Origin: a virus
Strand: one strand, 5' to 3'
Length of the DNA stretch: 64,000 nt
IMG/VR virus record: IMGVR_UViG_3300014501_000013
Location: 1 to 64,000 of that record
Below the pieces are notes generated by a model that saw only the letters and a program-made list of their open reading frames with translations, did not search any database and was not told the origin of the DNA. Both the position numbers and the translations under genes were made by a program. Below, one piece after another: positions 3,597 to 21,858 of the stretch. Position 1 is the stretch's first letter, and each line of letters opens with the position of its first letter.

Positions 3597-4945
3597 CAGT
3601 TCTCCCTTTCCTGGGTCGCTTCTACCAGCCGACAGAAGTTGCCTTGTAATTGCAGGTACACGCAAAGATCCCGCGCGCCATTGCGCTGTTTCTCGATCAA
3701 AACCTGTACTTCGTCCTTCGGTGAGTTGCCGCCTCCGCGCTTTAGCCCGGCCGGCTGATGTAGGAATATAACGGCGTCGGCGTCCTGTTCGAGCGATCCA
3801 GAATCGCGCAGGTCACTGCAACGCGGCCGGCGGTTCTCGACATCCGACAGCCGATTGAGTTGCGCGAGCACAAGAAACGGAATTCCGAGCGACTGAGCGC
3901 TCTGTTTCAAACGCCGGCTGATCGAACTCATCTCTTGGTTGCGATTTTCCCATCGGCCGGAGGTCTCGACTAAGCCAATGTAGTCGATGATTACGAGCCC
4001 CGGTTGAGACTTAGAAACATCACCGAGAATATCCGACAGTTTGAATTTGTCATCCAAGATTGCCAGCGGGTATTTTTCTATCCGGTTAAGTGCCTCGACG
4101 ATCTTGGAGCGAGACTCGCCATCCAGTTCGCCGCGGATAAGAGCGTCATGCGGAACACGGGCCGTACTGGAAACCAGCCGCTTGATCAGCGCCATGCGAG
4201 GCATCTCCAGGGAGTAAAAAGCTACCTTCACACCTTGAGCTACGGCGCAGTAAGCCATCTGAAGTGCGGCTGTCGACTTGCCTACGCTTGGCCTGGAGGC
4301 AAGGATTGTTAATTCCCCGGCCTTGAGACCTCCGTTGAGCACTTCATCCAAGGCATGCCAGGGAGTCTGCATCATGCACGCTGGACGCGCACAGAGGGCG
4401 TCCAGCCCACCTTCAGCCGCTAGCGCTTCCCCAACGCTCCGCTCGCTGGCATGCGGCGCCTGCGCCTTCGAGAGTTGAGCTAAACGCATGCCGGCGTCCT
4501 GGATCTCATCCGACACAAGGCTGTAGCCCTGATTACACTTGTCCTGAATGCTGACCGAAAGTCTATAAGCTTGCCGATCAATCGCCTTGCGCCGAAGGAT
4601 ACGCATGGCCCAATCCGCGTCAGCCAGTTCAACGTATTCGTCGGTGATTTCGGCTATACCCGACACGCCGCCTACAGCTTGTAGGTTGTTGTTTTCAATG
4701 AAATAAGAGGCCACTGTGCTGACCATAGGCGTTTTGCCAGCCGCAAGCAGTTCGCGTGATGCTTCAAAGACCTTGCGAAATTTCAAAGTGCCGAAGTCCT
4801 CAGGCTCTAACTCGTTTAGAATACGCAGGGGAGTTGTATCGGTACGAACTAGCACGTTAGCCAGTACCAGTTTCTCGAATCCTGGCTCGAACAGGTGCTC
4901 AAGCCCTCTGAACTCATCAACTTGTTGCTTTGAATCTGTGCTCAT
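3596..4945 (-). CDS. dnaB: DnaB-type replicative DNA helicase
   Basis: A 449-aa protein, normal length for phage DnaB. It would unwind the fork as a hexameric ring using ATP. The N-terminal all-helical domain (about 1-150) precedes the RecA-like core. Walker A is SRPSVGKSTA near residue 220; Walker B is GLVIIDYIGL near 318; the DnaB-specific QLNR...E.R...P...SDLRDSGSLEQDAD block follows near 365-395, and the C-terminal KQRNG loop is present. The ATG overlaps the stop of the DUF1376 gene (ATGA), a common pairing in phages where the latter acts as initiator or loader. No primase or polymerase is seen, so host enzymes are presumably recruited. Confidence 0.96.
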   Translation of the reverse strand: MSTDSKQQVDEFRGLEHLFEPGFEKLVLANVLVRTDTTPLRILNELEPEDFGTLKFRKVFEASRELLAAGKTPMVSTVASYFIENNNLQAVGGVSGIAEITDEYVELADADWAMRILRRKAIDRQAYRLSVSIQDKCNQGYSLVSDEIQDAGMRLAQLSKAQAPHASERSVGEALAAEGGLDALCARPACMMQTPWHALDEVLNGGLKAGELTILASRPSVGKSTAALQMAYCAVAQGVKVAFYSLEMPRMALIKRLVSSTARVPHDALIRGELDGESRSKIVEALNRIEKYPLAILDDKFKLSDILGDVSKSQPGLVIIDYIGLVETSGRWENRNQEMSSISRRLKQSAQSLGIPFLVLAQLNRLSDVENRRPRCSDLRDSGSLEQDADAVIFLHQPAGLKRGGGNSPKDEVQVLIEKQRNGARDLCVYLQLQGNFCRLVEATQEREN

Positions 4946-5841
4946 AGCTTCGTTTTTCCGTCCCAGAACTCATCCAGATGTGCCGCGGCGCACGCTTTAT
5001 CGCGCGCTAGTTCCTCGGCGTGGCGGCGGTTGCCGGCCTCCGGATCTTCATCTTCGTCGAAGAAACTGGGATCTGGTTCGTCTCGGAAACGCTCTTGATT
5101 TAACCACGTAGCCGGGTGAAGGGTGGTCGCTCCAGTGCGCCTGCCGCGCGCTAAAATCTGTGGCGCTTGCTCTTTCGCGGCTTTCACTGCTAGGTCTTTG
5201 GTTTCAACGTCTTCGATATTTTTAAGCCAAGCTGAACGCGCGGCGCCTACGCCTGTTTTTTTCCAAACAATCGGCCAGAACTCAGACTCAAACCAGCCGC
5301 GGCGAGTTTTTTCAGAAGCAACCTTTTCTTTCTTAAGATCTTCAGAAGAAGACTTAGATTCAGATTCAGACGCGCGTAGCGACCGGTTACCGCTACGGTC
5401 AGCGTTACGGTTAGCGCCACGCTTTTTGTTTGTCTTCTCAGCCGCCTCTACGCGCTTACTGTAAGCGTTTGAAGACTCTGTATATTGTTGATATAGCTTA
5501 GGATGAAAGCGACGTCCTTCTGGAGACTTGAAACTGAACATGGCGAGCACCCAGCGCCATTCGGACTCAATCTCTCGAATACAAGCCGAGTTTGAATCAT
5601 GATTGTCTACCATCTCGTCAACAAAAGTTATGTCACGATGGATCTGAGCCAATGTTCTCGGTAGTGAATCGTCACGGTCACCGTTACGCTCATCGCCCCA
5701 ATCAGGTAATCCGCCTTCCTGCCAGCAATAAGCCAAAAGCCGGATGTACCATCCAACTTGTCTGGCGGACATGGCCGTAACCTGAGGGTCAGCAATCCAA
5801 CTGGTAGCCATGAATTTGAACCACGGGAGCTTGGTCTTCAC
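4942..5841 (-). CDS. DUF1376 protein, putative replication initiator/loader
   Basis: A 299-aa protein starting with GTG. The N-terminal 110 residues (LPWFKFMATSWIADPQVTAM, then VGWYIRLLAYCWQEGGLP, and REIESEWRWVLAMF) match DUF1376, a winged-helix-like domain seen directly upstream of phage helicase genes. A basic, Ser-rich linker (KTNKKRGANRN, SESESKSSS) follows, then a C-terminal helical part (FWPIVWKKTGVGAARSAWLK) with HPATWLNQERF, typical of initiator C-termini. Role inferred from fold and from coupling to dnaB: origin recognition or helicase loading. Confidence 0.85.
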   Translation of the reverse strand: MKTKLPWFKFMATSWIADPQVTAMSARQVGWYIRLLAYCWQEGGLPDWGDERNGDRDDSLPRTLAQIHRDITFVDEMVDNHDSNSACIREIESEWRWVLAMFSFKSPEGRRFHPKLYQQYTESSNAYSKRVEAAEKTNKKRGANRNADRSGNRSLRASESESKSSSEDLKKEKVASEKTRRGWFESEFWPIVWKKTGVGAARSAWLKNIEDVETKDLAVKAAKEQAPQILARGRRTGATTLHPATWLNQERFRDEPDPSFFDEDEDPEAGNRRHAEELARDKACAAAHLDEFWDGKTKL

Positions 5842-5984
5842 TCCCCCTGCTCCGGGTGCGAGTCGTACCAGTTCTCTTCCATGGTGGGCTCAGGATCGTC
5901 CCAGCACGCACATAGGTGCTCAGGTAGATGGCAGATAGGGCAAGCGATTAGTTCGCGGTCGGGGTCGAAATCGTCAGAAGCCAC
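5838..5984 (-). CDS. 48-aa Cys-rich protein (GTG start)
   Basis: A GTG start at 5984 preceded by GGAGG at ideal spacing gives a 48-aa acidic protein with CPIC near residue 15 and CACW near residue 25, a probable zinc site. Its TGA overlaps the GTG of the DUF1376 gene (GTGA), so it opens the replication operon. Not recognised. Confidence 0.7.
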   Translation of the reverse strand: MASDDFDPDRELIACPICHLPEHLCACWDDPEPTMEENWYDSHPEQGE

Positions 5985-6299
5985 TCGAAACCTCCATCAA
6001 AGGCTTGGCGGTTAGGACTGGTGTTGATGGCACCAGCCCCGTGGGTCCGCCGTTCAATTGCTGCGCTCTTAAATTCTAACCGAGCCGCGCTACGTTTGCA
6101 ACAGAAAAACGCGGGGAATCGAACGCCCGGTAGTTATCGCGGCGACGAATAGAATCTTTCGGGCTTGCATCAAGGCACAATTCTCCTGTAAAATAGAATT
6201 GTTCTCCTCTTAGCAAACACCCGACCGCGAATCGGGCCGCTCTGCCCTTAAGCGCAGATTGATTTTCAGATAGGACTAACCCTCCTTTCTGGTGAAATG
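5985..6299. other. Non-coding stretch upstream of the replication operon
   Basis: No convincing gene. It holds a small hairpin (CTGGTG...CACCAG near 6018-6036), an 8-bp inverted repeat (ACAATTCT 6177-6184 with AGAATTGT 6195-6202, 10-nt loop) and two AGGAG-like sequences on the minus strand. The minus-strand open frame 6076-6336 lacks a start signal and family resemblance. Position next to the helicase operon makes it a candidate origin or control region; nothing proves either. Confidence 0.5.
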
Positions 6300-14829: not shown

Positions 14830-15402
14830 TCAACCCTGTGACGTACAGGCTTCGGGGGCTCTTGACATCATGCCCCGTCGAGGATCAGTGACGCTTATTC
14901 CGTTCTCGGCGTCCAGCCTCTTTCCCGTAAATCCGCCAGCCGGCCTATACTGGTCCCGGCAACCTGGCAACTGCTTGGGCGGTGAGATCCGTCTGCGAAT
15001 TTCTTCTACAACTGCATCGATGTCGACGAACACACGGTTCGCAGAGAAGCGTATCGTCGAGAAACCCTTTGATGCCAGCGTTTTGTCGCGGTATGCGTCG
15101 GCTTTGGCCTTCGCTGGCTTGTCATGAAACTTTCCGTCTATCTCAATGATGAGCTTGCGCTTAGCGCAATAGAAGTCGGCAATCCAGCCGAAGATCAGGC
15201 ATTGTCGACGAATGCGTATGCCAAGCCGATTCGCCCTGAGGCGAGCCCACAGCAGGCGTTCCGGTGGACTCATGTTCTTGCGAAGTTGGCGCGCAAAGGT
15301 TTTCTTGGCCGGGGCGCTCTTGGTCTTAAAGGCGTGAACCTTGGCTTCCTTGGCGGCTTCTATCAGCGATTTATAGACTGGCGAAATGAGTTGCTGTCTC
15401 AC
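14830..15402 (-). CDS. DUF559 endonuclease-like protein
   Basis: A 190-aa protein. Residues about 33-140 match DUF559, a fold related to very-short-patch-repair endonucleases: FARQLRKNMSPPERLLWARL, IRIRRQCLIFGWIADFYC, then KLIIEIDGKFHDKPAKAKAD with the catalytic-type D/E residues, RDKTLASKGFSTIRFSANRV and EEIRRRI. A tail of about 45 residues after the domain is unusual. Minus strand within a rightward operon and with its own TTGACA promoter, so it looks like an inserted moron or homing-type nuclease. Confidence 0.85.
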   Translation of the reverse strand: MRQQLISPVYKSLIEAAKEAKVHAFKTKSAPAKKTFARQLRKNMSPPERLLWARLRANRLGIRIRRQCLIFGWIADFYCAKRKLIIEIDGKFHDKPAKAKADAYRDKTLASKGFSTIRFSANRVFVDIDAVVEEIRRRISPPKQLPGCRDQYRPAGGFTGKRLDAENGISVTDPRRGMMSRAPEACTSQG

Positions 15403-15616: not shown

Positions 15617-16033
15617 ATGTATTCGAGCAATGAAGTCGCAGCGGTTGCGCGTGCAACCTTGCGGGAGCTTCAGTGGTGGGATGAGCATAACGTTATCCAT
15701 GCCGACTTTGTCGGTCGCGAGCGTCGGTACAATGTCAAGGATCTCGTTCAGGCCGTTGTAATAGCCGCTCTGAGACGGCGAGGCATCAGCCTGCAAAAGA
15801 TCCGGGGATACTGGCCGCAGTTGCGGTGTTCGCTCGCGAAAGCCCATGCAGCGCTGGAGTCCAGCTGCACGGTGATCGTGGTTGCAAATTCCAAGCTTGC
15901 GCTGGTATTCGAAAAGTGGGATGCCGTGTTTCCGTTCATGGCTGATTCATCTTGCGCTTGGACGGTGATCGAACTGAATCACGAGCTTGGCGCTAATGCG
16001 GCGCTGATTCGCGAACAACGGAGCGCGGCGTGA
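15617..16033 (+). CDS. MerR-like helix-turn-helix protein
   Basis: A 138-aa protein from the ATG at 15617, which follows AAGGAAG and a possible TTGACA promoter at 15559. MYSSNEVAAVARATLRELQW, then WDEHNVIHADFVGRERRYNV, KDLVQAVVIAALRRRGISLQ, KIRGYWPQL is the MerR-type winged HTH: helix, turn, wing with RRY, then the dimer-leading helix. The C-terminal part has no effector domain I know. Probably a transcription regulator or recombination directionality-type factor of the rightward operon. Starts at 15578 or 15593 are possible. Confidence 0.7.
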   Translation: MYSSNEVAAVARATLRELQWWDEHNVIHADFVGRERRYNVKDLVQAVVIAALRRRGISLQKIRGYWPQLRCSLAKAHAALESSCTVIVVANSKLALVFEKWDAVFPFMADSSCAWTVIELNHELGANAALIREQRSAA

Positions 16034-16055
16034 AGATTCGGCGTATACTGGCGGC

Positions 16056-16232
16056 ATGAGTCCCGAAGCTGCCGACAAACTGATCCAGATGGGCATTCTG
16101 CCGGGTTCGATAACTTGGGAGGCATGCGAGAACGCCACGCGGGCAGTCTGGCAGCCTGTCTATGACGAAGTTGCTCAAATGAAGGGTCACTGTCCACCTG
16201 AGGTAGCCGTGGCACCAAAGGCAACCGCATGA
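16056..16232 (+). CDS. 58-aa protein, paralogue of 16996-17397
   Basis: MSPEAADKLIQMGILPGSIT, then WEACENATRAVWQPVYDEV. The first 18 residues are identical to those of the protein at 16996, and the next dozen are similar (WExCENxTR), after which they differ. The stop overlaps the next ATG. Function unknown. Confidence 0.65.
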   Translation: MSPEAADKLIQMGILPGSITWEACENATRAVWQPVYDEVAQMKGHCPPEVAVAPKATA

Positions 16233-16474
16233 ATAAACGAAGCCTCAGCAGGGCCGCGAACCGAATGTGCGCCGAGCGCAAGCTCGAGATGCACTTCAAA
16301 TTCCGCGACGGCACGGCTTGGGCGAGAAGCGCCGAACTTCGCAAGCGCCCGGCAGGCAAATCACGCGCCTGGTGGAAGAAGGACAAGCGCGACCGCAAGG
16401 CGCAAGCGTTTTTGGCGGCAATTCCTTCAATCCCGGCCAAGCGGTTTCAGCCGACACCACCGGGAACAGCATGA
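16229..16474 (+). CDS. 81-aa very basic protein
   Basis: Rich in Lys and Arg throughout (KRSLSRAANRMCAERKLEMH, SRAWWKKDKRDRKAQAFLAA). ATGA overlaps on both sides. Probably nucleic-acid binding; not recognised. Similar in character, not sequence, to small DNA-condensing or inhibitory phage proteins. Confidence 0.6.
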   Translation: MNKRSLSRAANRMCAERKLEMHFKFRDGTAWARSAELRKRPAGKSRAWWKKDKRDRKAQAFLAAIPSIPAKRFQPTPPGTA

Positions 16475-16626
16475 GAATTCATGTCTGGAAGAATCGAGCG
16501 TTTGCCGATCCAGATTTGGTAGTTCGTGGATGGATCGCGGGAAACCAGCGAATGATCATATTCTTCCCAACATGGCGTAAGGCTCTTGATTTTGCTGTAG
16601 CAGCATCGAAGGCGGAAGCGTGGTAA
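16471..16626 (+). CDS. 51-aa hypothetical protein
   Basis: MRIHVWKNRAFADPDLVVRG, WIAGNQRMIIFFPTWRKALD, FAVAASKAEAW. The strand-strand-helix pattern suggests a small alpha/beta fold. ATGA with the gene before; its 3' end overlaps the GTG of the next gene by 7 bases. Not recognised. Confidence 0.6.
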   Translation: MRIHVWKNRAFADPDLVVRGWIAGNQRMIIFFPTWRKALDFAVAASKAEAW

Positions 16627-16829
16627 CCGAAGCCGAAGAGTTGCAAGAATTTCGCGAGGTTTTAACAGCCGCTCTTCTATCACCCGCCGGAGATCTTTGT
16701 AAACGGTGTGGCCACAGAAGGGACGGACATAGTAGTTGGTGGATGGGGACACCGGAAGATGACTACTGCGAATGGAACGACAAAACCGGAGAGTGCGAAT
16801 GTTCGGGGTTTCAAGAATCAACCGCATGA
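16620..16829 (+). CDS. 69-aa zinc-ribbon-like protein (GTG start)
   Basis: An N-terminal acidic helix (EAEELQEFREVLTAALL) is followed by CKRCGHRRDGHSSWWMG, then YCEWNDKTGECECSGF. Five Cys and two His suit one or two zinc sites; the C-x2-C-x2-H-x3-H layout is seen in phage proteins of this kind, and its neighbour at 16996 carries a related CRCGHYFWAH element. Confidence 0.65.
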   Translation: MVTEAEELQEFREVLTAALLSPAGDLCKRCGHRRDGHSSWWMGTPEDDYCEWNDKTGECECSGFQESTA

Positions 16830-16999
16830 ACGCACTTCCCTGGTACGCGCGGTGGCTGAACGGCGACCTCGCCGCGATTCAGGCAGAGGTGTGGAAGCAA
16901 TCCCGCTGGTTTTCGTGTAAAGTGGAACCAAGCGCGGCCCGCTTTTCTCCAGTCAAACCGAAGCTTACATCACCGCGGGCTGCGCGCCTAAACGTATGA
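16826..16999 (+). CDS. 57-aa hypothetical protein
   Basis: MNALPWYARWLNGDLAAIQA, then EVWKQSRWFSCKVEPSAARF with a basic C-terminus. ATGA overlaps with both neighbours place it firmly in the chain. Trp-rich N-terminal helix might be membrane-associating. Not recognised. Confidence 0.6.
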   Translation: MNALPWYARWLNGDLAAIQAEVWKQSRWFSCKVEPSAARFSPVKPKLTSPRAARLNV

Positions 17000-17397
17000 G
17001 TCCCGAAGCCGCCGACAAGCTGATTCAGATGGGCATCCTGCCGGGAAGTCTTCAGTGGGAATTATGTGAGAACGTGACGCGCGGCCTAAGCCGGCAAATA
17101 GCTGCAAGTTTCGATGGATCGCTCTGTCGCTGCGGGCACTATTTCTGGGCCCACGAAGCCGCGCAGGTCGGAAAGCAGCCGTGCAAATTTTGTGACTGCC
17201 CGGACTGGAATTCGGTGTATTCGGACCCAACCCCAGAATGTGCGACGGTGGCACCGAAGGCTGCCACCAAATTCTTACCCCCTGACAGCGCCGAGGAAAT
17301 CAAGGGCGTTGGCTGGCGCGTGCCGAAGGGTCAGATGATCGGCGGAAGGTCCACCAGTTACGAACTCTATGATTACGACGGGAAGCGCCTCACGTGA
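16996..17397 (+). CDS. 133-aa zinc-finger protein, paralogue of 16056-16232
   Basis: It shares the exact 18-residue N-terminus MSPEAADKLIQMGILPGS with the 58-aa protein upstream, then adds a zinc element (LCRCGHYFWAHEAAQ, CKFCDCPDW) and a C-terminal beta part (SYELYDYDGKRLT). The N-terminal helix is probably a shared recognition or oligomerisation element. Its TGA overlaps the GTG of the next gene. Confidence 0.65.
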   Translation: MSPEAADKLIQMGILPGSLQWELCENVTRGLSRQIAASFDGSLCRCGHYFWAHEAAQVGKQPCKFCDCPDWNSVYSDPTPECATVAPKAATKFLPPDSAEEIKGVGWRVPKGQMIGGRSTSYELYDYDGKRLT

Positions 17398-17558
17398 GCA
17401 AGGATCTCGACCAGCAGGAGGGCGATTTCTTTGATCGCGCCCGGCGCAATCCGCTGCGGGTGATCGACTTCGAGTACGCGCCGAACTGGAACGCGCCGAT
17501 TTCTTTGGCTCCCTTTATAGACGAAGACCCTCCCGAAGTTGAGGCAACGCTCCCGTGA
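17394..17558 (+). CDS. 54-aa acidic protein (GTG start)
   Basis: SKDLDQQEGDFFDRARRNPL, then RVIDFEYAPNWNAPISLAPF and an acidic tail. GTGA overlaps on both sides. Too short to classify. Confidence 0.55.
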   Translation: MSKDLDQQEGDFFDRARRNPLRVIDFEYAPNWNAPISLAPFIDEDPPEVEATLP

Positions 17559-17764
17559 TTGACAAATACGCGGGGCTCATTGCGCTAGTGGGCATGACCT
17601 GCGCTTTTGGCCTCGGCTGGGTCCTTCGCGGCATGTTAACGAAACCAAAGGCACTCCCGCCGCTGCCAAAGAGACAGAACCGCGGATGGGCCAACCCGCG
17701 CGTCAAAGGTCAGTTCGTGCGGCGCCCAGCGCATTTCGAGGGGCCGAAATTTCCTTGCTCATAG
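17555..17764 (+). CDS. 69-aa single-pass membrane protein (GTG start)
   Basis: One transmembrane helix at about residues 7-25 (GLIALVGMTCAFGLGWVL), then a basic Pro-rich tail (KPKALPPLPKRQNRGW) likely cytoplasmic. Coupled by GTGA to the gene before. Function unknown. Confidence 0.6.
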   Translation: MIDKYAGLIALVGMTCAFGLGWVLRGMLTKPKALPPLPKRQNRGWANPRVKGQFVRRPAHFEGPKFPCS

Positions 17765-17952
17765 TAACAATCAGCGTGCCCCGCGAGATCGACGCGAAAG
17801 AGCTTTTGCCGCCCAACGCCCATCCGTTTGGGGCTACCCCGCACCATGCGCCCAAGGAATACCGCGTAGAGTGCCGCGACCGTGCCGAGGCCGACATGCT
17901 CGTGAACACAATGCGAAATCAACCTGGAATCAGGGCGATGATTCTCGAATGA
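17755..17952 (+). CDS. Small hypothetical protein, start uncertain
   Basis: The conserved-looking part is SVPREIDAKELLPPNAHPFG, then YRVECRDRAEADMLVNTMRN. A TTG at 17755, overlapping the previous gene, or a GTG at 17776 are the plausible starts; I list the first. The stop overlaps the phosphatase ATG (ATGA). Strand-helix pattern suggests a small ferredoxin-like fold, unproven. Confidence 0.5.
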   Translation: MLIVTISVPREIDAKELLPPNAHPFGATPHHAPKEYRVECRDRAEADMLVNTMRNQPGIRAMILE

Positions 17953-18665
17953 ACGCCACAGCGAAGCCGCAGGATCGCGTTCGGGGTCAAATGGACATAC
18001 CATTGTCGCCGCAGGGCGAAGCCGAGAGCGACCACCTCGGACGGCGCATCGCTGCAAAGGGTGGGATCGATTCCATCGTGGCCTCGCCGATGACTCGGGC
18101 GCAGCAGACCGTAGCCGCCGTGCTCAAGCACAATCCGCAGGCAAAGTTTCTCGGTTCGGCGCAGCAGGCACTCCCCTGGAACCAGGGTGTCGTCACCGGG
18201 CAACCGATCAGTCAGGCCCAGCCGATCATCCAGCAGGCCGCCGACCATCCAGAGACCCCAATCCCAGGAGGCGAGTCCGTCGATCAGGTGGACAACCGCA
18301 GCGGCCAGTTCGTCCACCAGCAACTGCATTCCCTGAAACCCGGAGAACGCCGTTTGGTGCTCGCGCACCACTCCCAGATGCGGTACCTTCACGGATGGGA
18401 GAAAAAGGGGTTTCCGCCCGACATGAGCGCCGATCCAAAGGAAATGGCGACTCGCGCCGACAAAGCGAAGCCCGCCGGTTCGCTAATTCGTCTGGCGAAG
18501 GGCAAAGACGGCAAGCCCATGCTCCACGAGAACCCGATAGACAGCGATGAACCGATTCACGCCGGGCTGAATTTCGCCCGCCACGGGGCGACCGAGTTGA
18601 ACAAGGAATCCGGCGGCTCGCGCCTCTCCGCACTGTCGCCGAAGTCAAAGGCCCCCTTAAGCTGA
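17949..18665 (+). CDS. Histidine phosphatase with circularly permuted motif order
   Basis: A 238-aa protein. In the histidine phosphatase (phosphoglycerate mutase-like) family the RHG motif is N-terminal. Here the protein opens with what normally follows it (VRGQMDIPLSPQGEAESDHL), then SPMTRAQQT with Arg50, the acidic GGES with Glu109, and LAHHSQMR with the second catalytic His near 140. After the last normal strand (GSLIRLAKGKDGKPML) and a short linker comes LNFARHGATELN with Arg211-His212-Gly213, which normally begins the fold. All catalytic residues are present, only reordered. Substrate unknown. Start ATG 17949 overlaps the previous TGA; the upstream extension contains no RHG. Confidence 0.85.
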   Translation: MNATAKPQDRVRGQMDIPLSPQGEAESDHLGRRIAAKGGIDSIVASPMTRAQQTVAAVLKHNPQAKFLGSAQQALPWNQGVVTGQPISQAQPIIQQAADHPETPIPGGESVDQVDNRSGQFVHQQLHSLKPGERRLVLAHHSQMRYLHGWEKKGFPPDMSADPKEMATRADKAKPAGSLIRLAKGKDGKPMLHENPIDSDEPIHAGLNFARHGATELNKESGGSRLSALSPKSKAPLS

Positions 18666-18952
18666 TGGCCTCGCCTAAAAAGACAGGGATAGATCGGGCT
18701 AAAAAGTCAGAGATCGAGACTCGTTTAATGAACGAAATTCCATCGAACGCCGAAGTGGTTATCGAGAAGCTGATTTATGGCGACGGGGATACGTATAACT
18801 ATGTGCGAGCCTATATATTCAGCGGAAATTATCCGCGCTGGAATTGCCTTGTGCTGAATTACGCAACGCCTGATCCATTGACGGCGGCGTTCCCACGTCT
18901 AAAGGATGCACGCCGCTGGATCGCCGCGATACTGAGGAAAGCGAGACGATAA
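18665..18952 (+). CDS. 95-aa hypothetical protein
   Basis: The basic N-terminus (ASPKKTGIDRAKKSEIETRL) precedes an alpha/beta part (VVIEKLIYGDGDTYNYVRAY, then DARRWIAAILRKARR). The ATG shares its A with the last base of the phosphatase TGA. Not recognised. Confidence 0.6.
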   Translation: MASPKKTGIDRAKKSEIETRLMNEIPSNAEVVIEKLIYGDGDTYNYVRAYIFSGNYPRWNCLVLNYATPDPLTAAFPRLKDARRWIAAILRKARR

Positions 18953-18953
18953 A

Positions 18954-19202
18954 ATGGCCAAGCGCTACTTTTTCTCGCAGCATCACGCGAACTGGCCCGC
19001 CAAGCTCACCGTGCCTGAAGGCCACGAGGTTACGATCAACCATCCCTCGACGCGAACGCAAACCGCGCATCGCAACGAAGAGGGCGAGATATTGCTTCCG
19101 AAGGGCAGCCATATCATCGGGTTACGCCACATTGCGACCGGCAACGAACTGATGCCCGTGGCAAAGCCGTTGAATACGGTGCCGCTGGAGGTCCCGAAAT
19201 GA
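18954..19202 (+). CDS. 82-aa beta-rich hypothetical protein
   Basis: MAKRYFFSQHHANWPAKLTV, then VTINHPSTRTQTAHRNEEGE, LLPKGSHIIGLRHIATGNEL. Alternating short strands suggest a small beta barrel or sandwich. One base separates it from the upstream stop; its TGA overlaps the next ATG. Confidence 0.6.
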   Translation: MAKRYFFSQHHANWPAKLTVPEGHEVTINHPSTRTQTAHRNEEGEILLPKGSHIIGLRHIATGNELMPVAKPLNTVPLEVPK

Positions 19203-19330
19203 AACGCCTGATGTGCAGACTTGGATTCCACAAGCTTCACGCCTATAACGAAAATACGATCCACATCTGCATTCGTTGTTCCTACTGCGCCGAGTGGGGC
19301 TGTAAGGTGAGCATTCATAACAATGCCTGA
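19199..19330 (+). CDS. 43-aa C4 zinc-finger peptide
   Basis: MKRLMCRLGFHKLHAYNENT, then ICIRCSYCAEWGCKVSIHNN. The Cys/His arrangement (CRLGFHK...C-x2-C-x2-C) is the treble-clef-like pattern seen in many small phage proteins. Overlaps the next gene by 8 bases in another frame. Confidence 0.6.
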   Translation: MKRLMCRLGFHKLHAYNENTIHICIRCSYCAEWGCKVSIHNNA

Positions 19331-19496
19331 CTCCCGCAGTCAGGTTCGCTGGGCCCATTCGGTTCTGGAAAATCAGGCCAATGGCGACAAGTCTTTCGCC
19401 AAGGAAGTAGTGCGCGGTATGCACGGGCGAAAGATGGCCTCGCTGCCGGACCACACGAAAAAGCCCTCGATTCTCGGCAGACTCAGAAAGAAATAA
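19323..19496 (+). CDS. 57-aa basic protein near terL
   Basis: MPDSRSQVRWAHSVLENQAN, KSFAKEVVRGMHGRKMASLP. It resembles small phage proteins near terminase genes with SKAQxRWA...VxxxH...LP layout. Function unknown. TAATG junction with the next gene. Confidence 0.65.
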   Translation: MPDSRSQVRWAHSVLENQANGDKSFAKEVVRGMHGRKMASLPDHTKKPSILGRLRKK

Positions 19497-19768
19497 TGGC
19501 ATTCAACTTCAAGGCTCCGAATCCATCAAAGTTCATCGCCAAGCCATTCAACATCGGCGCCGACATCGGCCACCTTGAGAAATTTCGACCCCTCGGTCAA
19601 AGTATCGGGATTGGGCTTGATAAGGCATCGCGTGCCGAGGGCGGTCCAGCCAATCCGCTCTCGACCGACCCGCTTGGCAACCCGTCGATCATCAAGCGGC
19701 TTTCGTTCAAGAACCGCATGAACCTGCGACCGAAGTTGGCGACACCGCCAAAGATCAAGCCCGTCTAA
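19496..19768 (+). CDS. 90-aa protein immediately before terL
   Basis: MAFNFKAPNPSKFIAKPFNI, then HLEKFRPLGQSIGIGLDKAS; rich in Pro, Lys and Asn with little helix, so probably extended or disordered. It shares one base with the terL start (TAATG). Possibly a minor virion or packaging-associated protein; not recognised. Confidence 0.6.
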   Translation: MAFNFKAPNPSKFIAKPFNIGADIGHLEKFRPLGQSIGIGLDKASRAEGGPANPLSTDPLGNPSIIKRLSFKNRMNLRPKLATPPKIKPV

Positions 19769-21858
19769 TGGCCAAGCAGCAAGCACAGCCGCGCGTCGTT
19801 CTCCTGACCGGCAAGCAGATCCGCGCGGTCAACCCGAACAAGTACACAGGGCCGTTCCGCGCGGTTTGGTGTGCCGAGCACCACTTTACGGGCCCGTGGC
19901 CTTGCGATTGCCCTTCTGGTCCCCAGACCCAGGCGTGGAACAGTGATGCCGACGAGATTGGGCTCGGCGGCACGCGCGGTTCAGCGAAGACGCACCTAAT
20001 GCTTGCTTGGATGGCGTTCCGAGGCAACCCGAGAAAATTGAATAAGCTTCTCGCTGAAGGCAAACAACCTGAAGGCGCCGACGTGATGTACATCAACCAC
20101 CGCAATTTTCGCGGCTTGATGCTTCGCAATCAAGCTAACGATCTTGAGGATTTGATCGATCGTGCGGAGGAGATGTGGGGACCGACCGGCGCAATCATCA
20201 AGCGCGGCAATCCTTCGATGGCGGAATGGCGCACGGGGGCCAAGATTATCTTCGGGCACTTCGGAGACAACGGCTGGAAAAAGTACGTCGGTCCCGAGTA
20301 TCAGCGGATTGCAATTGACCAGGCTGAGATGATGGAGTCAAAGGAAATCCACGACCGCATTATCGGCTCTTGCCGCTCGAAGTGGTCAGCGTTAAAACCG
20401 CAGGCGCTGTTAACGTTCAATCCTGGCGGCGGCGACGAACTAGCGGGCGCTCCCGGCCAAGCGTGGTTGATGGACTATTTTTACATCGAGGATTACGAGC
20501 GCGGTGAGAAACTAAAGCGCGGAGATTACGTTATCGATGAACATGGCAAGTACCACACGTTCATCATGTCGAAGTGGAGCGATAACCCGTACTTGTGTCA
20601 CTACGTTGAATACGACGCGCCCTACGATGCCGCGACGGGAACCGGCGGAAACGTCACCGTCTACAAGCCGAATGAAGGACCATACGTCAAGTGGCTGAAC
20701 TCGATCGAGCCCGAATCGCTGCGCGCCGCGTGGCGCGACGGCAACTGGCACGCGCTCTCCGGCGCTTACTTCCGCGACTTTCGTCCAAATGGACCGCTGG
20801 TAGGTGAAGAGAAGTACAATGCCAATCACGTCTACGACCCGTCCAAAGTAAAACTCGAATCGTGGTTCCACCGCTGGATGGCTATTGACTGGGGCTATAT
20901 CCATCCGAGTGCGTTGGGGTGGTTCTGCAAATCTCCATGGGGCCAGACGTATCTGGAAAAAGAAATTTGCCTCAATCGCGTTGAGCCCTTCGAACTCGGC
21001 ATCCTGATCGCACGTGAATCCAAGGCTGCGCTTGCGGGAGTCGAATCGCACCAGATGGTGATCTACCTATCGCCTGACGCTTACGCAAAGCGCGAGAGTG
21101 AGAATACGGTGGCTTCGCAGATTGCGGCTGGGATCTCTAGCGAACTTGGTCCGCACGCGGCGTTTGTCGCCGATCTTACCGACGAAGAACGCGAGATGGA
21201 TTCGAAGGACGCGCTTGAATCGCTGAAGCGCCGGCGGCGCGAGCAATCGAATACCATGCTTACCTTGGTGCGCGCATCGACCGATCGCGTGGCGGGCTGG
21301 ATGCACATTCAGACCATGTTTAGGTTCAGACCGCTCCAGGAGCAGGCGGTCCCGGATAAGGAATTCGCCGAACAGTTGGAAATCGAGAAGGGTATCGTTG
21401 CCCGATTGCAATATGAGGCGCTCCCGGAGTTTCTTGCGGCGCGCGAAGTGCTACCGAAATTGCAGATTTCCAAGCAGGCGCGAAATCTGATTAAAATGCT
21501 TCCGATGATGATGCACCGGCCTGGGACAAATGACACAGAAAAACTTGACGCAACTGAAACTCGTCCCGGCGACGACTCCTGCGATATGCTGCGCTACGGA
21601 TGCTTTTCGGAAGAGAGGCAGGGCGCGACCGAGGCTCCGCTCGATGTTCGTGTGGGATTGCAGGTCGCTCAGATGCAGTCGCGCTACGGTGGCGGCATTT
21701 CGCATCACAGCGTTCTGATGGCGACAGAGCAGGCGCGGTGGCGCGAGCAGCATCCACTCGCGAAGAAACAGGACCTGTTCGTTGGGGCTAACAGACTTGC
21801 TGCAATTCGCGCGATGCGTTCTGCTAACTTCGGAAGGGGCAACGAAATAATTCAATGA
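19768..21858 (+). CDS. terL: Terminase large subunit
   Basis: A 696-aa protein: ATP-driven DNA packaging motor plus headful or site-specific nuclease. The ATPase domain has a Walker A GLGGTRGSAKTHL near residue 68 and a Walker B-like QRIAIDQAEMME near 178. The nuclease domain (RNase H fold) has RWMAIDWGYIHPSALGWF near 370 with the first metal-binding Asp, then later acidic residues. An N-terminal Cys element (PWPCDCPSG) near 47 is less usual. Length is longer than average. The stop overlaps the next ATG. No convincing small terminase is adjacent; the candidate lies at 13678. Confidence 0.92.
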   Translation: MAKQQAQPRVVLLTGKQIRAVNPNKYTGPFRAVWCAEHHFTGPWPCDCPSGPQTQAWNSDADEIGLGGTRGSAKTHLMLAWMAFRGNPRKLNKLLAEGKQPEGADVMYINHRNFRGLMLRNQANDLEDLIDRAEEMWGPTGAIIKRGNPSMAEWRTGAKIIFGHFGDNGWKKYVGPEYQRIAIDQAEMMESKEIHDRIIGSCRSKWSALKPQALLTFNPGGGDELAGAPGQAWLMDYFYIEDYERGEKLKRGDYVIDEHGKYHTFIMSKWSDNPYLCHYVEYDAPYDAATGTGGNVTVYKPNEGPYVKWLNSIEPESLRAAWRDGNWHALSGAYFRDFRPNGPLVGEEKYNANHVYDPSKVKLESWFHRWMAIDWGYIHPSALGWFCKSPWGQTYLEKEICLNRVEPFELGILIARESKAALAGVESHQMVIYLSPDAYAKRESENTVASQIAAGISSELGPHAAFVADLTDEEREMDSKDALESLKRRRREQSNTMLTLVRASTDRVAGWMHIQTMFRFRPLQEQAVPDKEFAEQLEIEKGIVARLQYEALPEFLAAREVLPKLQISKQARNLIKMLPMMMHRPGTNDTEKLDATETRPGDDSCDMLRYGCFSEERQGATEAPLDVRVGLQVAQMQSRYGGGISHHSVLMATEQARWREQHPLAKKQDLFVGANRLAAIRAMRSANFGRGNEIIQ

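Follow-up and report, generated by a model that had tools for sequence, protein, structure and literature searches.

Histidine phosphatases of the phosphoglycerate mutase superfamily carry the RHGxTxxN motif on their first strand, and a soil phage gene on a 64,000-nucleotide viral contig (the whole stretch analysed, here called the window) raises the question of whether this order has been rotated in nature. The gene, at 17949..18665 on the plus strand, encodes 238 amino acids and is supported by its ORF translation, by Pfam and by a 95% identical homologue on another contig; the window also encodes a terminase large subunit at 19768-21858. The ATG start codon of the phosphatase gene shares the sequence ATGA with the stop of a small upstream ORF. 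The motif stretch LNFARHGATELN occupies residues 207-218 of the protein, with the RHG itself at residues 211-213 of 238, and the remainder of a branch-1 histidine phosphatase precedes it in normal order, whereas a canonical domain opens with the RHG strand at its N-terminus. Thus VRGQMDIPLSPQG (residues 11-23; 17979..18017, plus strand, as for all motifs here), which in canonical enzymes comes after the RHG strand, is N-terminal, and is succeeded by SPMTRAQQT (residues 46-54; 18084..18110) with the predicted phosphate-pocket arginine R50, GGES (residues 107-110; 18267..18278) with the predicted acid/base glutamate E109, and LAHHSQMR (residues 138-145; 18360..18383), in which H140 aligns to the second catalytic histidine. 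The displaced catalytic strand and RHG loop, GLNFARHGATELN, follow at residues 206-218 (18564..18602), with H212 as the predicted phospho-acceptor, and the chain ends in a mostly predicted disordered tail (residues 219-238; 18603..18662; pLDDT <50 for 221-238). The motifs and residue numbers in an earlier note on this DNA agree exactly with the translation.

The Pfam profile His_Phos_1 (PF00300) matched residues 7-148 of the protein to profile positions 13-155 (E=8.9e-19, 68.4 bits against a curated cut-off of 21.7), which by profile places it in the branch-1 histidine phosphatase superfamily, while the first 12 profile positions, which bear the RHG, were unmatched in the native order. The equivalog cut-offs of NCBIfam, among them those for alpha-ribazole phosphatase and phosphoglycerate mutase, were not reached, the best model being TIGR03162 with 45.7 bits against 162.9. 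In a pairwise search against solved structures, TIGAR was recovered in swapped pieces, residues 206-221 of the window protein aligning to TIGAR 10-25 and residues 16-122 to TIGAR 33-141. Similarly, a profile of ten permuted sequences aligned to PhoE (1h2e) at profile positions 192-206 with PhoE 3-17 and at positions 5-146 with PhoE 17-159 (whole-sequence E=1.1e-14), so that the two swapped PhoE pieces abut at PhoE residue 17. When the 18-residue tail was put before the body, a rearrangement made for Pfam scoring only, the window protein scored 77.8 bits over profile positions 3-155 compared to 68.4 in its native order and 61.4-62.2 with shuffled tails (n=4). The same rotation raised two relatives from 84.4 to 98.3 bits (L008) and from 62.0 to 71.8 bits (L010). 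In three members, then, the rotated order outscores the native one or the shuffled tails by 9-16 bits.

The earlier note had asked whether the permuted order forms a family, and it does: ten distinct sequences share the same order. One of these (L001) is an independent phage contig encoding a protein 95% identical to that of the window, and when viral contigs and species genomes were searched iteratively, eight more phage or prophage proteins came up (L006, L008, L010, L012, L016, L020, L041 and L042), 26-32% identical where measured and all permuted; in L012 the contig end falls inside the RHG motif. A synthetic motif alignment (A3) served only as a search probe. In a tree, all permuted sequences grouped together (support 75/79, 80% of bootstraps), which is compatible with a single origin of the permutation without proving it. 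The window protein and its near copy sit on a long branch and may stem from a second, independent permutation event, and none of the loci read showed an intermediate bearing two RHG strands. Other searches returned little: tblastn of the window protein gave four weak matches in phages, of which three distinct ORFs (H1, H3 and H4) were read and had the canonical order, and no match in plasmids. Run against these two collections, the L008 domain gave nothing beyond weak partial matches. A DNA pattern for W..G.P.D plus FxRHG found nothing in viral contigs, the pattern demanding a C before TGG that is absent in the window itself, and searches of PDB and PHROG revealed neither a permuted nor a named family.

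Rearrangement is common among small phage genes, and the window is a contig of metagenomic origin, so an assembly chimera, a frameshift or a decaying pseudogene could have left a terminal RHG stretch by accident. This explanation is highly improbable, since the separate contig L001 and the eight further relatives have the same order, which also occurs in two bacterial genome assemblies (the L008 sequence in a Terriglobia assembly, L022, and the L006 sequence in a Bryobacterales assembly, L021). Between the window protein and its near copy the changes were mostly synonymous, with a dN/dS of 0.09 overall, 0.083 for the body and 0.118 for the tail, indicating purifying selection on both parts. 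Moreover, reading 16001-19600 in all three forward frames revealed no other RHGxT and only two chance strings of the RHAxT/S type, 2 kb upstream, and no canonical N-terminus is therefore hidden by a frameshift. Frameshift and chimera, which the earlier note had named among the findings that could undo its reading, did not materialise: the near copy and the distant relatives rule both out, and we rejected them on the near copy, its dN/dS, the order shared in the family and the missing upstream RHG. The remaining accidental reading, a truncated phosphatase of canonical order whose terminal RHG arose by chance, would fit the observation that the body alone exceeds the Pfam cut-off, but has next to no probability left. 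The six frames of the 64 kb contain RHGxTxxN a single time, in this ORF, and the motif arose in 11 of 200,000 shuffles of the protein (expected about 5e-5); the rotation gain recurs in three members, the motif histidine is invariant in ten sequences, and this conservation of the tail refutes chance.

Structure prediction, which the earlier note had proposed as a check, gave histidine phosphatase folds for both members modelled, each from 8 sequences with AlphaFold2. The model of the window protein was moderate (pLDDT 75.6, pTM 0.76, with three of the five models averaging pLDDT 44-51) and contained a strand at residues 206-211, while the L008 domain was modelled with pLDDT 89.1 and pTM 0.86, its strand at residues 194-199 lying in blocks of mean pLDDT 95-97. 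With VIA-align, residues 7-204 of the window model aligned to residues 15-202 of alpha-ribazole phosphatase (Z 16.1, 183 residues at rmsd 2.6) and residues 2-189 of the L008 model to residues 16-198 of phosphoserine phosphatase (Z 16.2 over 170 residues), so that by these models both proteins are predicted to have the fold of the superfamily. The alignments begin past the canonical RHG strand and leave the confident C-terminal RHG strand of L008 unaligned, the behaviour expected of a sequential aligner faced with a permuted chain. The confident strand and the conserved residues strongly imply contact between the C-terminal RHG and the GES/His pocket. A fold search of BFVD gave weak matches only, the best of which were labelled histidine phosphatase or phosphoglycerate mutase. 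The lower-confidence linker before the RHG strand would also allow the strand to swap into a partner subunit, so that two intertwined chains would share composite active sites; this appears improbable, as the L008 monomer model puts the strand in place (pLDDT about 97, pTM 0.86) and the relatives have a shorter linker at this point. The circular permutation proposed in the earlier note is thus upheld by sequence, by independent relatives of the same order and by predicted structures, whose alignments to canonical enzymes start right behind the RHG strand. We put at roughly 0.87 the probability that a branch-1 histidine phosphatase has been circularly permuted in nature to give the window protein, with Acidobacteriota phages as its carriers.

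Under this permutation the chain would open just past the RHG loop and run through the normal core, after which a new linker (about residues 194-205) would connect the last canonical strands to the RHG strand, which would re-enter the sheet and end the chain. R211, H212, R50, E109 and H140 should then assemble the usual pocket in the folded protein. In the superfamily, catalysis proceeds through a phosphohistidine on the RHG histidine with a glutamate as proton donor, and intact permuted members are expected to work likewise: H212 would accept the phosphate, E109 would give the proton and water would release the phosphate. We infer that the window protein is a predicted active phosphatase for small molecules or phospho-residues, made during infection.

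The equivalents of H212, R50 and E109 are invariant in all ten rows of the alignment, and all five catalytic residues are present in the window protein, its near copy and L008, where the second histidine lies in T-H-G. L042 keeps the RHG and has serine for the second histidine only, L010 and L041 have QH for the Arg-His of RHG together with serine for the second histidine, and L006, L012, L016 and L020 have TH together with the same serine. A supported subclade (96/94) comprises the six members in which both residues, RHG arginine and second histidine, are missing; with these lost, the six proteins probably serve to bind phosphorylated ligands, not to hydrolyse them. An extension of this view is that the permuted domain acts chiefly in regulation or in binding phosphate ligands within injected phage proteins and that the window protein, too, is no hydrolase in vivo. 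In its favour, six of ten sequences have Q or T for the arginine and S for the second histidine, with the H212, R50 and E109 equivalents kept, and a seventh, L042, has lost the second histidine alone; nevertheless this reading is unlikely, given the five intact residues in the window protein, in L001 and in L008 and the purifying selection on the window/L001 pair.

The window gene and L010 stand alone, while most other permuted members lie inside long polyvalent phage proteins, on ORFs that span 871 to 1,913 codons wherever enough of the ORF is present to judge. The domains of L006, L008 and L016 are found within proteins of 1,533-1,820 amino acids with PBECR1 or DdrB-ParB domains, a signature of polyvalent proteins; the window protein is a single-domain ORF of 238 amino acids, without the several unrelated effector domains by which such proteins are recognised. 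Polyvalent proteins have been proposed to be injected with the phage DNA (Iyer et al. 2017, PMC5512222), and the long-ORF setting of most permuted relatives, several with PBECR1 or DdrB-ParB, corresponds to the one described there; the text of that paper mentions neither phosphatases, phosphoglycerate mutase nor permutation, and the window gene differs in being stand-alone. The flanking segments of polyvalent proteins could affect access to the active site, as the new chain ends would lie at its loop. A 1,140-aa phage protein (L013/L014) also has a histidine phosphatase domain, 29% identical to that of L008, but here (L013 5947-6402) the RHG is at the N-terminus of the domain in the normal order, unlike in L008; both domain orders, canonical and permuted, are thus found in long phage proteins. 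By the host evidence, the known hosts of the permuted family are Acidobacteriota (Bryobacterales): among 250 sampled genomes of the order of the L021 assembly four were positive, two of them being the seeds, and among 399 sampled genomes of its class only the seed was. A wider account, possible but on balance doubtful, is that this is the first naturally permuted histidine phosphatase clade, born once in Acidobacteriota phages and used as a swappable effector domain of injected polyvalent proteins, in which neighbouring segments gained control of the active site through the new termini beside it and one subclade turned into a non-hydrolytic binder of phospho-ligands.

Compared with the branch-1 enzymes PhoE of Bacillus stearothermophilus (1h2e), the alpha-ribazole phosphatase CobC (6nru/6e4b) and the phosphoserine phosphatase PspA (4ij5), the window protein has the core fold, the motifs and the five catalytic residues in common, but its RHG strand is last and a new linker joins the old C-terminus to the old N-terminus. 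Among the matches listed, all solved relatives aligned in normal order. A natural family with enzyme-core motifs in rotated order is known in the circularly permuted cpRAS GTPases (PMC2430557); the rotation is alike, but the fold is unrelated. No published work joining histidine phosphatases with circular permutation was found in a search mostly outside subscription papers. We therefore call the permuted order a new variant within the known histidine phosphatase superfamily, with no published permuted class found, subscription papers and larger structure sets aside. The histidine phosphatase core is among the best-studied phosphotransfer folds, and a natural permuted family shows that it tolerates opening right at the active-site loop. 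Such a family can serve as nature's own template for permuted phosphatases, and it extends the toolkit of polyvalent proteins by one domain. Automated annotation sees a partial, RHG-less phosphatase, and permuted proteins are consequently likely to be misread as truncated or dead.

Directly upstream of the window gene lies a small ORF, B (17755..17952, plus strand), whose start is uncertain, possibly TTG at 17755, and whose end overlaps the start codon of the phosphatase gene. It is about 62-73 amino acids long across relatives and has no Pfam or PHROG match. A relative is found immediately upstream of the permuted domain in L010 (5789-6010), and others, starting with ATG and ending at the domain, in L006 (4804-5007), L012 (5822-6010), and L016 and L020 (both 5810-6010). 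In these latter four, B is in another reading frame than the long polyvalent ORF that covers it, and is by its sequence an apparent overprinted gene. Between L016 and L020 the dN/dS was 0.32 in the B frame and 1.25 in the long-ORF frame, while other pairs, with 0.44-0.92 in the B frame, were less clear. A similar alternate-frame ORF was seen by eye in L041. In L045, around 4866-5210, ORF B within a polyvalent ORF is followed by a ParB-like stretch, judged by eye, with no phosphatase, which points to a place at which one effector domain may be exchanged for another.

Elsewhere in the window, the minus strand carries an IS1595-family transposase within the phage contig (7447-8382; DDE_Tnp_IS1595, E=2e-40) and a small endonuclease-like gene for a DUF559 protein (14830-15402; E=2e-30). 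The ORFs at 16056-16232 and 16996-17397 have a 31-residue start that is 81% identical (MSPEAADKLIQMGILPGS...), a local duplication.
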